Positions 16,016 to 24,517 of a stretch of DNA of 64,000 bases are shown here, piece by piece. The position numbers and the translations under genes are program-made. The DNA comes from Phycicoccus sp. Soil802 (GTDB lineage: Bacteria > Actinomycetota > Actinomycetes > Actinomycetales > Dermatophilaceae), in assembly GCF_001429605.1 (NCBI RefSeq), contig NZ_LMSS01000008.1, forward strand, positions 62,001-126,000. Reading direction: 5' to 3'. The notes below the pieces were generated by a model, which was given only the letters and a program-made list of their open reading frames with translations, was not told the origin of the DNA and made no database searches. Position 1 is the first letter of the stretch; each line of letters starts with the position of its first letter.

Positions 16016-16097
16016 CCCGAGGCATACCTCTGTTTGCGTGCGGACGGGGCCACTGGCCTGCCGTGTGGCGTGATAATTGCGGGGTGTGGCGCAGGTC

Positions 16098-16142
16098 TCC
16101 TGACAATCTGCCCGATATCGGGGAAACTGTCCCGGTCAGGAG
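16098..16142. promoter_or_regulatory. Nested palindrome upstream of the BldN-type sigma gene
   Basis: The perfect 12-bp palindrome CCCGATATCGGG (16111-16122) is centred in a 30-bp imperfect palindrome whose ends are GACA and TGTC (16102-16131). It is flanked by CTCCTGAC and GTCAGGAG arms, the latter ending at 16142. It lies about 130 bp before the chosen sigma-factor start and is a candidate operator or structured leader. Confidence 0.6.
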
Positions 16143-16170
16143 GCCCCCATCCGGATCCGTGCACGTCGCA

Positions 16171-16194
16171 GCGCCGCGAGTCGACTCGCGGTGC
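16171..16194. promoter_or_regulatory. 24-bp palindrome upstream of the BldN-type sigma gene
   Basis: The perfect core CCGCGAGTCGACTCGCGG is extended by GCG/TGC flanks with one mismatched pair. It overlaps the most upstream possible GTG (16191) of the sigma gene, which argues that translation starts further downstream and that this is a regulatory element. Confidence 0.6.
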
Positions 16195-16223
16195 TCCGTC
16201 CTGCCCGAAGCGTTCCGGTCTGG

Positions 16224-16251
16224 GCAACGAGCGCCCCGGCGATCGGTTACG
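16224..16251 (-). promoter_or_regulatory. BldN-class promoter match on the minus strand
   Basis: Read on the minus strand: CGTAAC (16246-16251), exactly 16 bases, then CGTTGC (16224-16229). This fits the CGTAAC-N16-CGTTGA promoter described for Streptomyces BldN. It points away from the sigma gene toward the HAD gene 3' end, so its transcript would be antisense or non-coding. Confidence 0.45.
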
Positions 16252-16271
16252 CCGGCGCCGGCAACCACGGG

Positions 16272-16967
16272 ATGGGCCCGGCGACCGCGGACTTCCTCGA
16301 CAGCCTCCGGGTGCTGCTCACCATCGCCGGCGACGCCGGCACGCTGTCCGGAGGTGGGTCCGGCCAGGGTGGGTCGGCAGCGAGGGCCGGGTTCGGGCCG
16401 GGCGAGGCCCCACAGGACTTCGAACGGATCTCTGCGCTGGTGGAGCTCGCGCAGCGCGGCGACAGCGAGGCGTTCGGCCTGCTGTACGAGCGCTACGTGG
16501 ACGTCGTCTACCGCTACGTCTACGTGCGCGTGGGTGGCCGGCAGCTCGCCGAGGACATCACCTCCGAGACCTTCCTGCGCGCCCTGCGCCGGATGGACTC
16601 CTTCTCCTGGCAGGGGCGCGACATCGCGGCGTGGTTCATCACCATCGCCCGCAACCTGATCACCGACAACGCCAAGTCGGCGCGGTTCCGGATGGAGGTC
16701 TCGACCGCCGACATGCTCGACGCCGACCCGCGTGTGGAGGCCGCCCCCGACCACGAGGTGCTCGACCGGCTCCGCAACGAGCGGCTGCTCGCGGCCGTGA
16801 AGGGGCTCAAGCCCGAGCAGGCCGAGTGCGTGGTGCTGCGGTTCCTCCAGGGCCTCACCCTCGCCGAGACGGCCAAGGTGCTCGGCAAGTCCGAAGGGGC
16901 CGTCAAGCAGCTCCAGCTGCGCGCCGTCCGCGCCCTGCACCGGGAGCTCGCCGATGTCGACATCTGA
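16272..16967 (+). CDS. ECF RNA polymerase sigma factor, BldN type
   Basis: A 231-residue ECF sigma factor. Region 2 covers about residues 65-135 (AFGLLYERYVDVVYRYVY, AEDITSETFLRALRRMDSF, WFITIARNLITD). Region 4 is about residues 175-228 (LKPEQAECVVLRFLQGLT, AETAKVLGKSEGAVKQLQLRAVRALHREL). The N-terminal extension of about 55 residues before region 2 (Gly-rich) resembles Streptomyces BldN. Its neighbour is a DUF5667 anti-sigma-like gene as in bldN-rsbN. The start is uncertain: the ATG at 16272 is preferred to a GTG at 16191 that lies inside a palindrome. Confidence 0.85.
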   Translation: MGPATADFLDSLRVLLTIAGDAGTLSGGGSGQGGSAARAGFGPGEAPQDFERISALVELAQRGDSEAFGLLYERYVDVVYRYVYVRVGGRQLAEDITSETFLRALRRMDSFSWQGRDIAAWFITIARNLITDNAKSARFRMEVSTADMLDADPRVEAAPDHEVLDRLRNERLLAAVKGLKPEQAECVVLRFLQGLTLAETAKVLGKSEGAVKQLQLRAVRALHRELADVDI

Positions 16968-17037: not shown

Positions 17038-17065
17038 CGTAACTTCCGGGGTCGCCGCTCGTTCT
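17038..17065 (+). promoter_or_regulatory. BldN-class promoter upstream of the RsbN-like gene
   Basis: CGTAAC (17038-17043), exactly 16 bases, then CGTTCT (17060-17065). It matches the CGTAAC-N16-CGTT core reported for sigma BldN targets, including rsbN in Streptomyces. The gene start at 17154 would leave a leader of about 80 nt with GGGAGGGAG as ribosome-binding site. It predicts that this sigma factor activates its own antagonist. Confidence 0.65.
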
Positions 17066-17153
17066 CAGCGCGAGAGACCGTCATCGACACCGCCGCCCGG
17101 ATCAGCACGATCCCCGGACGGGTCGCCGCAGGGCTGGGGAGGGAGAAGCCGGC

Positions 17154-18320
17154 ATGCCAGTACTGAACCGCTCGGCGGACCGTTTCCAGCGCGCCCTGGA
17201 GGGTGAGCGCATCACCGACGAGGGTCTCGCCGAGCTGGTCGAGACCAGCCGCCACCTCGTGGCCATGACCTCGGCAGTCCCGGCCGCCGACGCGGCGTTC
17301 GTGGCCACCCTGCGCGAGCGGCTGATGGCCGAGGCGGGCCGGATGCCGGCGCCCAGCCCGGTGGCCGCGAAGGCTGCCGCAGCGCGCCGCGCCGCGTCCC
17401 GCACCACTCCCGTCGTCGTCGTGGTCGGTCGCGGGCTGCCCAGGCTGCTGGCCGGCGCCGCCGCCTCGGTGCTCCTGGTCGGTGGGGTCGTCGGCGTCGC
17501 CTCACGCAGCGCCGTCCCGGGCCAGGCGCTCTACCCCGTCAAGGGCTGGCTCGACGGAGTCGCAGTGCGGCTCGCGGACAGCGACCTCGAGCGCGGCCAG
17601 ACCTACCTCTCGCAGGCGCAGGACCACGTCTCCGACGCCCGCACGCTCGCCGAGGGCAGCAGGGACATCGGCGACATCGACACCGCCCTGACCGCCGCGA
17701 CCGAATCCGTGCGCAAGGGCCGCCAGGCGCTCGACACCGCCTACGCCACCACCGGCAACCCGCAGGCCCTGCTCGCCATGCGCGACTTCACCGCCCGCAC
17801 GCTCCCGCAGCTCGACGCCCTGCGCACCGAGCTGCCGCCGGCGACACTGCCCCAGCTGGCCGCCCTCGAAGCCCTGCTGCGCGACACCGAGCAGAGCACC
17901 TCCCGGCGGATCGCCGCCTGCGGGGGCGCCTGCAGCGGTTTCGCCTCCTCACCGCTCGGGCCGTCGTCGCTGCCCGGGTCCGCGACCACGGCCCCCTCGG
18001 GCTCCCCCACCGCGTCCTCCTCGGGTGGGGTCACCGTCCCCGACACCGCGGTGACCGTGCCGGGCGGCGTGCCCGTGCCCGGCGGTTCGAGCCCGTCTGG
18101 CCCGGTCGTCGGCGGAGGTGGTGGCAGCGCGAGCGTGGGCACCACCGGCGCCAGCGTGGGGCTGCCGACGCTGAGCGTCTCGGTGCCGGTCGTCCCGTCG
18201 GCGACGGCCACGGTGCCGCTCCCCACGGTGAGCCTGGGCACCGGCAGCGTGAGCGCGACCGTCCCGAGCAGCACCCTCGGCCCGGTCACCCTGCCGGGCG
18301 TGACGCTGACCCTCCCCTGA
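17154..18320 (+). CDS. DUF5667 membrane protein, RsbN-like anti-sigma factor
   Basis: A 388-residue single-pass protein. The cytoplasmic N-terminus (about residues 1-95, FQRALEGERITDEGLAEL) should bind the adjacent sigma factor. A membrane helix follows near residues 102-124 (LLAGAAASVLLVGGVVGV). The DUF5667 domain has the signature SAVPGQALYPVKGWLDGVAV, followed by a helical extracellular region to about residue 250. The C-terminal 130 residues are Ser/Thr/Pro/Gly/Val-rich and probably cell-wall spanning. Gene order and topology match Streptomyces RsbN; sigma binding is inferred. Confidence 0.85.
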   Translation: MPVLNRSADRFQRALEGERITDEGLAELVETSRHLVAMTSAVPAADAAFVATLRERLMAEAGRMPAPSPVAAKAAAARRAASRTTPVVVVVGRGLPRLLAGAAASVLLVGGVVGVASRSAVPGQALYPVKGWLDGVAVRLADSDLERGQTYLSQAQDHVSDARTLAEGSRDIGDIDTALTAATESVRKGRQALDTAYATTGNPQALLAMRDFTARTLPQLDALRTELPPATLPQLAALEALLRDTEQSTSRRIAACGGACSGFASSPLGPSSLPGSATTAPSGSPTASSSGGVTVPDTAVTVPGGVPVPGGSSPSGPVVGGGGGSASVGTTGASVGLPTLSVSVPVVPSATATVPLPTVSLGTGSVSATVPSSTLGPVTLPGVTLTLP

Positions 18321-21022: not shown

Positions 21023-21280
21023 GATGTCCTCTTGGTCGTGGTCGTGTTGCCGGACGGGGCAACGAACGCACCACGCCGAACTGTGGACGTCACTCTAGCG
21101 GCCCGCGCCCCCACCACCCAAACCCGCTTCGGCACGTGCGCCGTAACCGGGCTCGTGGCGGGGATCCGCCACGGGCGGGTCGCGAGCCCGACACAACTCG
21201 CCAGTAACCCCCTGTGGTGGGGCCTCGTTGTCAGGCCACCCGGGCCGGTGAGAGCCCGCAGAGCGCAGGAGACGTCGACC

Positions 21281-24200
21281 ATGTCCCGTAAGCACCCCGC
21301 TGTCCGACCACTGGGAATCGGGGTGTGCCTGCTGACCGCAGCCGCCACCGCCCTCCCCCTCTCGACCGCCTCGGCAGCCCTTCCCGCCGCGCCCGTCCTG
21401 CCCGCCCTCGGCGACACGGTCGATGCGCTGACCAAGACGGTGGACACCCGGCTGGTGAAGGACGCCGTCGCACCGACGACGGCCGCGCGCACCGCCGCGT
21501 CGGCGTTGCTCGCCAAGGCCGGCAGCGGCACCCGCGCCACCTGGGACGAGCGGTTCGGCACGCTGCGGTCGGTCCGCACCGACGGCTACCTCACCGCCGC
21601 CACGAGCGGCTCCGCCGTCGAGGTCGCCCGCGGCTGGCTGCGCACGAACGCGGCGGCCTTCGGGCTGAGCACCGCGCAGGTCGACTCGCTCGCCGTGGTC
21701 CGCGACCACACCCTCCCCACCACCGGGACGCACGTCGTGGACTTCGTCCAGACCGCTGACGGTGTCGCGGCGGCCCGCGGCGGTCGCCTGAACGTCGCCG
21801 TCACCAAGGACGGCCGGGTGCTCTCGTATGCCGGTGACCCCACCCCGGGTGCGGACCTCACCGGCGGCTGGCTGCTCGGCGAGGCAGCCGCACTGCTCAA
21901 GGTCGCCGGCGGCCTCGCGCCGGGCGTGACCTACGCCCCCAAGGCGAACGGCACCCAGGCCGGTTACACCACGTACGCCAACGGCCCCTTCGGTGGACCG
22001 TCCTACGTGAAGAAGGTGACCTTCGGGACCAAGGCCGGCCCCGTCGCGGCATACAAGGTGTACTTCATCAAGAGCCCGCAGGAGGCCTGGGAGGTCGTCG
22101 TCGACGGCACCACCGGGCACACCCTCTACCGGACCTCCGTCGTCGACTTCGAGGGCGACCCGCAGGGCACGGTCTACGACAACTACCCGGGAGCGGCCAA
22201 GGGCGGCCAGCCGCGCCAGCAGTCCTTCGGCCCGACCACGCAGTCGCCCAAGGGCTGGGTCGACCCCACCGGGCTCGCGGGCACCGGCGTCACGACCTAC
22301 GGCAACAACGCCGACACCTACGCCAACTGGTCGAACTTCATCGGGCCGGTGGACAACGCGCCGCGTCCCGTGGCCCCGACCGGGAACTTCAGCTACACCT
22401 ACACGAACCAGTGGGCCGCCACCAAGGGTCAGACCGTCCCGCCTTCCTACGCCCAGGACCTCGACCCGGCCGCGACGAACTTGTTCTTCCAGCACAACCG
22501 GATCCACGACGAGTACTACGCCCTCGGGTTCACCGAGACGGCCGGCAACTTCCAGCTCGACAACGGCAGCAACGGCGGTTCGGGCGGAGACCCGATCCGC
22601 GGGCTCGTGCAGGCCGGCGCCGCGTCCGGTGGCAGCCCGACCTACACCGGTCGCGACAACGCCTACATGCTCACCCTCGACGACGGGATCCCGCCGTGGA
22701 GCGGCATGTTCCTGTGGGAGCCCATCGACGACGCCTTCGAGGGTCCCTACCGGGACGGCTCGTTCGACATGAGCGTCATCCAGCACGAGTACACCCACGG
22801 CCTGTCCACCCGCTACGTCGCGGGCGGCAGCGCCCTCGGCTCGCAGCAGGCCGGCTCGATGGGTGAGGGCTGGTCCGACTGGTACGCCCTCAACCACGGC
22901 TTCAAGGCCGGGCTGCTCACCAAGCCCATCGTCGGCGACTACGTGACCGGCAACCCCACCCGAGGCATCCGCAACTGGAACTACGACCAGAACCCGACGA
23001 CGTTCGGTGACATCGGCTACGACCTGACCGGTCCGGAGGTCCACGCCGACGGTGAGATCTGGACGGCGACCCTCTGGGACCTGCGCAAGGCCCTGGTCGC
23101 CCGCTACGGCGCGGCCCAGGGAGCCGAGGTCGCGGCACGCCTCATCACCGACGGCATGCCACTGACCGCCCCGGACCCGAGCTTCCTCGACGCCCGGGAC
23201 GGCATCCTCTCCGCCGACCTCGACCGCTACCACGGTGACAACACCGACCTCATCTGGTCGGTCTTCGCCAAGCGTGGGGCCGGCGCCAGCGCCCACTCGG
23301 ACACCGGTGACGACACCGACCCGACGCCCGCGTTCGACCACCCGGTGGCCGCCAAGAACGGCACCGCCGCGCTCACCCTCCTCAACGCGACGACGGGCCA
23401 GCCGATCAGCAACGCCAAGGTCATCCTCGGTCGCTTCGAGGCCCGGGTCACCCCGCTGGTCCGGACCGGCTCGTCCGGCGGCGCCAGCATCAAGGCGCTG
23501 GCCGGCACCTACCCGCTGACCATCCAGGCGCCCGGGTTCGGCGTCCAGACCATCGACGCGTTCGCCGTGACGGCCGGCCGCAACCCGGCCCGGACGATCA
23601 AGCTCGCCCCCAACCTGGCCTCCACGGCCGCCGGCGCACAGGTCGTCAACGTCTCCAGTGAGGACGACGGCGCCCCGGCGAAGTTCGCCTTCGACGACAC
23701 CGCAGCCTCGGTGTGGTCCACGAAGCCGGGCACCACGGCATACAACGCCGGTCCGGACCAGCGCGTGACGGTGAAGCTGGCGGCGCCGGCGACGGTGAGC
23801 AGCCTGCGGGTCAGCGCGTTCAAGGCCACCAACGCCTCGCGGTTCGTGGCACTCAAGGACTTCACCGTCCAGACCTCGACCGACGGGGTCAGCTGGACCA
23901 CAGCCCGCACCGGTGGCTTCGCGTATGCCGCGCCGCGACCGACCGCGCCCGACCTCAACTTCGCGACGTTCTCGCTCGCCAAGCCGGTCAAGGCCGCGTA
24001 CGTGCGGTTCTTCATCGACTCGGTGCAGGGCAACACCACGACGTCGGCGCAGGTCGCGGACATCGAGGTCTTCGGGTCAGGGGCGACCGTGGCCAACGGC
24101 TCGGTGACGCCGGACCCGGCCTACAGCGACTCGGGCACGATCGTCGCGCCCAACCCCGCCGCCGGTGACCCGACGGGTCTGCAGAACGTGTTCGGCGTGA

Positions 24201-24517
24201 CCGGCACCGAGATGAACACAGCGTGCACGTTCCCGCCGGCCAGCCAGGGCGCCGACGGCTGGGTGACGAAGTTCCCGCTCGGCTTCTCGGACGGGCTGCA
24301 CTCGGTCTCCGTCAAGGGCACCAGCGACGCCGACGCCACGGTGGGTCACGACCTGGACCTGTACTTCCTGGACAGCGCCTGCCAGCTCACCGGCTCGGTG
24401 GCCACGTCGGCCGCCGACGAGTCGGCGGTCATCCCGCCCGGCTCGGTCTACCTGCTGACCCAGCTCTACACCGGTGCCAACGTCTCGGTGGCGGTCACGG
24501 CGGTCGACAACCGCTGA
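21281..24517 (+). CDS. Secreted M36 (fungalysin) metallopeptidase with discoidin-like domain
   Basis: A 1078-residue extracellular protease. A signal peptide ends near residue 32 (STASA). A propeptide with FTP/PepSY-like repeats runs to about residue 300. The M36 catalytic domain has zinc-binding HEYTH at residues 502-506 and the third ligand Glu529 in GEGWSDW. After it come a beta-sandwich segment (about 680-780) and an F5/8 type C-like domain near 790-925, which may bind cell surfaces or glycans. AGGAG lies 10 bases before the ATG. It interrupts an otherwise conserved bS22-bldC neighbourhood, so it may be a lineage insertion. Confidence 0.9.
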   Translation: MSRKHPAVRPLGIGVCLLTAAATALPLSTASAALPAAPVLPALGDTVDALTKTVDTRLVKDAVAPTTAARTAASALLAKAGSGTRATWDERFGTLRSVRTDGYLTAATSGSAVEVARGWLRTNAAAFGLSTAQVDSLAVVRDHTLPTTGTHVVDFVQTADGVAAARGGRLNVAVTKDGRVLSYAGDPTPGADLTGGWLLGEAAALLKVAGGLAPGVTYAPKANGTQAGYTTYANGPFGGPSYVKKVTFGTKAGPVAAYKVYFIKSPQEAWEVVVDGTTGHTLYRTSVVDFEGDPQGTVYDNYPGAAKGGQPRQQSFGPTTQSPKGWVDPTGLAGTGVTTYGNNADTYANWSNFIGPVDNAPRPVAPTGNFSYTYTNQWAATKGQTVPPSYAQDLDPAATNLFFQHNRIHDEYYALGFTETAGNFQLDNGSNGGSGGDPIRGLVQAGAASGGSPTYTGRDNAYMLTLDDGIPPWSGMFLWEPIDDAFEGPYRDGSFDMSVIQHEYTHGLSTRYVAGGSALGSQQAGSMGEGWSDWYALNHGFKAGLLTKPIVGDYVTGNPTRGIRNWNYDQNPTTFGDIGYDLTGPEVHADGEIWTATLWDLRKALVARYGAAQGAEVAARLITDGMPLTAPDPSFLDARDGILSADLDRYHGDNTDLIWSVFAKRGAGASAHSDTGDDTDPTPAFDHPVAAKNGTAALTLLNATTGQPISNAKVILGRFEARVTPLVRTGSSGGASIKALAGTYPLTIQAPGFGVQTIDAFAVTAGRNPARTIKLAPNLASTAAGAQVVNVSSEDDGAPAKFAFDDTAASVWSTKPGTTAYNAGPDQRVTVKLAAPATVSSLRVSAFKATNASRFVALKDFTVQTSTDGVSWTTARTGGFAYAAPRPTAPDLNFATFSLAKPVKAAYVRFFIDSVQGNTTTSAQVADIEVFGSGATVANGSVTPDPAYSDSGTIVAPNPAAGDPTGLQNVFGVTGTEMNTACTFPPASQGADGWVTKFPLGFSDGLHSVSVKGTSDADATVGHDLDLYFLDSACQLTGSVATSAADESAVIPPGSVYLLTQLYTGANVSVAVTAVDNR

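Follow-up and report, generated by a model that had tools for sequence, protein, structure and literature searches.

The window, the whole stretch of 64,000 nucleotides of Phycicoccus sp. Soil802 DNA analysed here, contains a gene for a BldN-type ECF sigma factor followed in the same direction by a gene for an RsbN-like membrane anti-sigma factor. The features relevant to this pair are listed below.

16100-16128, plus strand: likely housekeeping-type promoter of the sigma gene, CTGACA-N17-GAAACT, recognised by eye against 13 loci, its own included.
16149-16967, plus strand: BldN-type ECF sigma factor gene; the start is uncertain (ATC at 16149 with a ribosome site, GTG at 16191, or ATG at 16272).
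16226-16251, minus strand: third BldN-type copy, aimed against the sigma gene's own start region and present at the same place in 6/11 genus genomes.
17038-17063, plus strand: predicted BldN-type promoter of the RsbN-like gene, with -35 CGTAAC, a 16-nt spacer and -10 (T)CGTT, then CTCA; kept in 30/30 family loci.
17132-17145, plus strand: rsbN ribosome site (GGCTGGGGAGGGAG), complementary to loop 1 of a sigma-associated RNA elsewhere in the genome.
17154-18320, plus strand: RsbN-like membrane anti-sigma gene with DUF5667, a domain also present in the Streptomyces-like RsbN that was read.
21204-21230, plus strand: BldN-type element GTAAC-N17-CGTTG, 50 nt before the M36 peptidase gene.
21281-24517, plus strand: gene for a secreted M36 (fungalysin) metallopeptidase (Pfam PF02128, E 4e-90), a predicted sigma target.

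Among solved structures, the one closest to the sigma protein is sigma BldN of S. venezuelae (6dxo_A, E 3.3e-51, with the runner-up at 6.6e-18). Since its score against the NCBIfam BldN equivalog TIGR02952 (185.8 bits) is under the cut-off of 206.45, we term it BldN-type and orthologous by synteny, not a TIGR02952 equivalog. The gene stands in the conserved neighbourhood that marks sigma BldN. Among the 14 named loci read (of 44), the order hemA, rex, sigma and epimerase is found in all 14, the acyltransferase in 13, and a match to RsbN in 9. As in the BldN-RsbN system of Streptomyces (S. venezuelae, S. coelicolor), a HAD hydrolase gene lies upstream, and the adjoining RsbN-like gene has DUF5667 and is preceded by a matching promoter element; the sigma identity is 60% (four Streptomyces-like loci). 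The HAD-sigma order holds in all four Streptomyces-like loci read (of 30); their flanks do not reach far enough to show the other genes. The sigma protein is extended at its N terminus by at least some 80 residues. In sigma BldN, the N-terminal extension is removed by proteolysis.

Like RsbN, the anti-sigma protein is encoded directly after the sigma gene and carries DUF5667. This domain also occurs in L239, the gene at the same position in one Streptomyces-like locus. A check of one sigma factor (L231) and one downstream gene (L239) from these loci matched them to the two partners of the solved complex 6dxo; L239 matches chain 6dxo_D, which is labelled BldN in its entry and is taken here as the anti-sigma factor. 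The N-terminal part of the anti-sigma protein gave no phmmer match to Streptomyces RsbN (6dxo_D) and 0.2% in hhalign, in a comparison that omitted two family proteins with doubtful starts (L021, L030). Against proteins of Kribbella and Actinopolymorpha hhalign gave 96.9%, whereas those proteins gave only 2.7% against Streptomyces. Since the N-terminal domain does not match, we file the protein as RsbN-like by position and DUF5667 only. A passage of PMC4255298 describes RsbN proteins as diverging unusually fast, and the binding mode of the BldN-RsbN pair is treated in a section of PMC7406223.

The original prediction placed CGTAAC-N16-CGTTCT before the RsbN-like gene, and this sequence is present at 17038-17065 on the plus strand. 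The element is intergenic; the sigma gene stop lies at 16967 and the RsbN-like ATG at 17154, 88 nt past the element, and the gap between the two co-directional genes is 186 nt. The claimed match to a consensus CGTAAC-N16-CGTTGA holds for the -35 and the spacer, whereas the -10 agrees in only 4/6 bases; the consensus itself was not located in print in the passages on BldN returned by a literature search. With CGTAAC, a spacer of 16-17 nt and CGTT, the rsbN element has the composition of a BldN promoter, and rsbN transcription is predicted to start at about 17070-17073. The pattern CGTAACN{15,17}CGTT has two matches in the window, one of which is the rsbN core (CGTAAC-N16-CGTT, 17038-17063), against 0.03 expected from 100 dinucleotide shuffles. 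A whole-genome scan with this pattern, proposed together with the original prediction as a way to define the regulon, yielded 9 matches versus 2 for the reversed control, and GTAACN{16,17}CGTTG gave 9 versus 0.

The element lies 3' of the sigma gene in 30/30 family loci, with a spacer of 16 nt in 18 and 17 nt in 12, and with the -35 CGTAAC in 25 and CGTGAC in 5. Since two genus genomes outside this set (G149 and G150) also have both the sigma gene and the element and add to the genus loci of the family set, the element is present in 11/11 genus genomes. Among 78 named loci, it was found in 44/44 with a sigma identity of at least 54% and in 0/34 with 42% or less (distant ECF sigmas). In the Streptomyces-like genus, used as a positive control, it was found at 29/30 loci and was missing at one (L257). 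At nine genus loci, mean identity is 98% over the ten motif columns, 66% over the spacer and upstream flank, and 75% over the 25 nt that follow; the spacer begins with an invariant TTC. CTCA follows CGTT in 21/30 family loci, including this one. The Streptomyces-like rsbN sites mostly read CGTT-GTG, as against CGTT-CTCA in those 21 loci (17060-17068 here), and the strength of the anti-sigma promoter may differ between the two types. The rsbN -10 here, CGTTCTCA, is unlike the CGTTG of Streptomyces.

The pattern GTAACN{16,17}CGTTG has 88 matches in the 11 genus genomes versus 18 for the reversed control. We read 86 of them; the two left out, in G124 and G032, are instances of the antisense site already covered by L011 and L012. 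Fifty-eight of the 86 sites have a gene start on the same strand no more than 100 nt downstream, with starts called by our own script without an annotation pipeline; one of the 58 is a repeat in G143 (L197). Among the unconstrained neighbouring bases of the 58 sites, C precedes GTAAC in 48 and T precedes CGTTG in 52. Target genes were grouped by protein similarity, with Pfam names taken from one representative per group. The predicted targets comprise an MceG-like ATPase (11/11 genus genomes), a lytic transglycosylase (SLT_2) and an S15-type hydrolase (10/11 each), an S8 subtilase (9/11), and the M36 peptidase and an Mce-type (MlaD/Mce4_CUP1) gene (5/11 each, one of the latter with a poorly placed start). 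Seven of the 88 matches are copies of a unit GTAACCCACCCA...TCGTTG at four places in G143 (L151, L191, L194, L197), six of them in pairs 33 nt apart; these repeats resemble an iteron or operator and seem to have no connection with the sigma factor.

The mceG link was followed through the family, where 33/149 genomes have the sigma gene (E 1e-40). We read 42 of 43 mceG-like matches, the remaining one, from G030, starting inside the gene. The element was found at 25/27 mceG copies in sigma-bearing genomes, beginning 70 to 155 nt before the gene, and at 0/15 in sigma-less genomes. The two misses (the second copy in G069, and G096) are copies with 68-69% identity and were entered as misses in the Fisher test, whose p value of 1.4e-9 is uncorrected for ancestry and overstates independence because ancestry is shared. 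A GTAAC half-site nevertheless lies within 160 nt before mceG in 15/15 sigma-less genomes, 12 times as GTAACTTC, against about 2% expected per stretch. The half-site loci are L212, L216, L225, L227-L230, L261-L263, L265-L268 and L270, and GTAAC is doubled in some of them. Since the sigma-less loci retain GTAAC only, the -35 half is not specific to this sigma factor, and it is the -10 half that tracks the sigma gene. Another factor reads, or once read, the half-site in the sigma-less genomes and may read mceG there.

The name MceG is our reading of the sequence; the ABC ATPase and MlaD/Mce4_CUP1 assignments come from one scanned representative each. As in Mce lipid import systems, an ABC ATPase is present here and an MlaD/Mce4_CUP1 protein is encoded in another locus; control by a BldN-type sigma factor is predicted here, unlike in those systems. 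In the literature searched, no paper contains both bldn and mce as whole words. An ancestral origin of mceG control is not supported, the element being found at 0/14 mceG copies (13 of 31 genomes) in the Streptomyces-like genus.

The element is also found directly before a sequence of about 100 nt with two strong hairpins, located between converging genes (L044 in the present genome). Loop 1 of this small RNA is C-rich with an invariant CCCCGGCTC, and loop 2 is GCAGGG. The hairpins covary: across nine sequences, both sides have changed in 20/39 pairs, a value reached in 0/500 shuffles and compared with at most 8 in slid controls. The alignment (A2) comprises nine of the ten loci known at that stage and omits L145, whose second hairpin differs. 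The RNA model matches 11/149 family genomes, all sigma-bearing, as well as G149 and G150, both with the sigma gene; the RNA gene is thus found in 13 genomes with the sigma gene, namely the 11/11 genus genomes, G030 and G042. It was not seen in the other 22 sigma-bearing or the 116 sigma-less genomes of the sample, under strict filters that can lose weak matches. Three loci (G042, G150, G030) were found by the model and not by the promoter pattern; in G042 and G150 the element sits at the expected distance, whereas a contig end truncates the G030 locus.

Sixteen loci, ten of which hold the RNA, gave no match to Rfam 15 families at or over gathering. The small RNA resembles Scr3202 (RF02833) of Streptomyces in its two hairpins, the first with a C-rich loop and the second terminator-like. 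We rejected this identity; the score is 25.4 bits versus a cut-off of 52, and the BldN-type promoter is found in none of the 13 Scr3202 loci within the preceding 70 nt. Other weak Rfam matches, mostly animal microRNAs and the alphaproteobacterial ar7 (23.4 bits versus 60), were taken as chance. The scr3559 RNA, mentioned together with bldN in PMC8539372, is unrelated to the small RNA here as far as the consulted part of that paper shows.

From these sequence comparisons, we consider it very probable that RNA polymerase carrying the neighbouring BldN-type sigma factor uses the element as a promoter, as part of an inherited circuit with rsbN feedback and a shared regulon. Our confidence in this reading is marginally lower than it was, because the half-site is retained in the sigma-less genomes. 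The same 15/15 half-sites before mceG favour a rival reading, in which the element serves another factor, either an activator or a different ECF sigma that recognises a GTAAC-type -35, and has stayed next to the sigma gene by happenstance. Such an origin is nevertheless unlikely, given that the complete two-part element tracks the sigma gene at mceG (25/27 against 0/15) and follows the sigma gene in all close and no distant named loci, and that the Streptomyces counterpart is reported as BldN-dependent in a passage of PMC4255298.

About equally improbable is a reading in which most rsbN transcription comes by read-through from the sigma gene and the element is minor. The two genes are indeed co-directional and only 186 nt apart, but the motif columns stand out within this gap, and in Terrabacter-type relatives (L057-L060, L062-L067), where about 280 to 370 nt separate the element from the rsbN start, the element still follows the sigma stop by 4 nt. 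Given how short CGTAAC and CGTT are, a chance match in a GC-rich genome is conceivable, yet both the shuffle expectation for the window and the conservation counts (30/30 family loci; 44/44 versus 0/34 named loci) make this explanation vanishingly improbable, and we rejected it.

In the sigma-dependent promoter reading, the sigma factor would be made from its own housekeeping-type promoter (16100-16128), and RsbN would hold it at the membrane until some signal frees it. Active sigma would then transcribe rsbN, and RsbN would bind sigma at the membrane, acting as a brake by negative feedback. The same sigma would transcribe mceG, the Mce-type gene, several exported hydrolases, the lytic transglycosylase and the two-hairpin small RNA. 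A negative feedback loop in an organism that may not sporulate had been put forward in the original prediction; the conservation, the synteny and the Streptomyces counterpart argue for the predicted loop, and Pedococcus is described in a passage of PMC6113628 as asporogenous cocci or short rods. The further statement that rsbN is a BldN target in Streptomyces agrees with a part of PMC4255298 in which S. venezuelae rsbN has its own BldN-dependent promoter. The host genome is 4.29 Mb, and its genus includes Pedococcus bigeumensis, Knoellia koreensis and three strains named Pedococcus sp. or Phycicoccus sp.

The circuit would have been inherited with the surrounding genes, with a target set unlike that of Streptomyces, where bldM, chaplins and rodlins are named as key BldN targets (PMC4125116, in the part consulted). 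PF03777 (chaplin-like) repeats are found in 6/11 genus genomes, four of them over the cut-off. Six such regions were fetched, and a repeat frame was obtained in five, the sixth, from the present genome (L335), giving no frame. The BldN-type element was found near the start of 0/5 chaplin-like genes read (L334 being an incomplete frame), and chaplins were rejected as targets in this genus. L332, L333, L336 and L337 are exported proteins in which PF03777 units are repeated and the C terminus carries a LAMTG- or LALTG-like sorting sequence; the BldN-type promoter is absent near their starts.

Since the Streptomyces-like mceG copies and the chaplin-like genes here both lack the element, we regard the circuit as old and rewired. 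A feedback promoter is what one would expect in this known circuit; the novelty lies in the asporogenous host, the rewiring of the regulon, the link to mceG and the small RNA. In a survey that covered about 100 actinobacterial genomes, as summarised in a passage of PMC4255298, convincing syntenic BldN orthologues were confined to morphologically complex genera. The word bldn was absent among the matches listed when combined with family or genus names in the literature. In this spore-less soil coccus, a BldN-type switch appears instead to govern lipid import, secreted enzymes and a small RNA. Because the locus, promoter and synteny are intact in an asporogenous genus with sequence-readable targets, a role of the BldN circuit apart from aerial growth becomes testable; the predicted role would cover envelope lipid import, wall remodelling and secreted hydrolases. 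The locus would also link an Mce-type ATPase to a defined sigma factor and add a small RNA without a matching Rfam family.

The pairing energy of the RNA loop with the rsbN ribosome site is -22 to -26 kcal/mol, which beats all 39 window leaders in 8/8 genomes tested (of 11). The rsbN leader carries RGCYGGGGAGG in 10/11 genus genomes. Across the whole genus, RGCYGGGGAGG is not enriched before gene starts (111 versus 119 for the reversed control). It is therefore a tentative and rather doubtful idea that the invariant loop (CCCCGGCUC) of the sigma-dependent RNA base-pairs with the rsbN ribosome site and that the RNA so shuts off anti-sigma synthesis. We treat the pairing as a lead, since RGCYGGGGAGG was derived from rsbN and the background leaders come from our own script. 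If it is true, the sigma factor would produce its own brake, as rsbN mRNA, together with an RNA lifting that brake, and a bacterium without known development would have a timed or bistable switch.

The start region of the sigma gene has further features. An AGGAGG ribosome site is followed here by an in-frame ATC (16138-16151); a ribosome site with an in-frame ATC is found in the 13 closest loci, this one included, and in only 3/17 other family loci read. The 13 closest loci have no ATG, GTG or TTG start in common, and the sigma gene may start at AUC. Coding from the ATC is not proven, because the G+C at the three codon positions in this region (0.80/0.72/0.78) is unlike that of the sigma core (0.69/0.42/0.98). 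The minus-strand copy at 16226-16251 falls inside the sigma reading frame if the start is 16149. It is a possible antisense promoter that could yield an antisense RNA over the sigma ribosome site, and it may also be a by-product of coding, since the peptide ATSxPAxGYA is similar in several genomes carrying the copy. An inverted repeat, CTCCTGAC/GTCAGGAG (16097-16142), encloses the likely sigma gene promoter and is seen by eye in several relatives, making it a possible operator.
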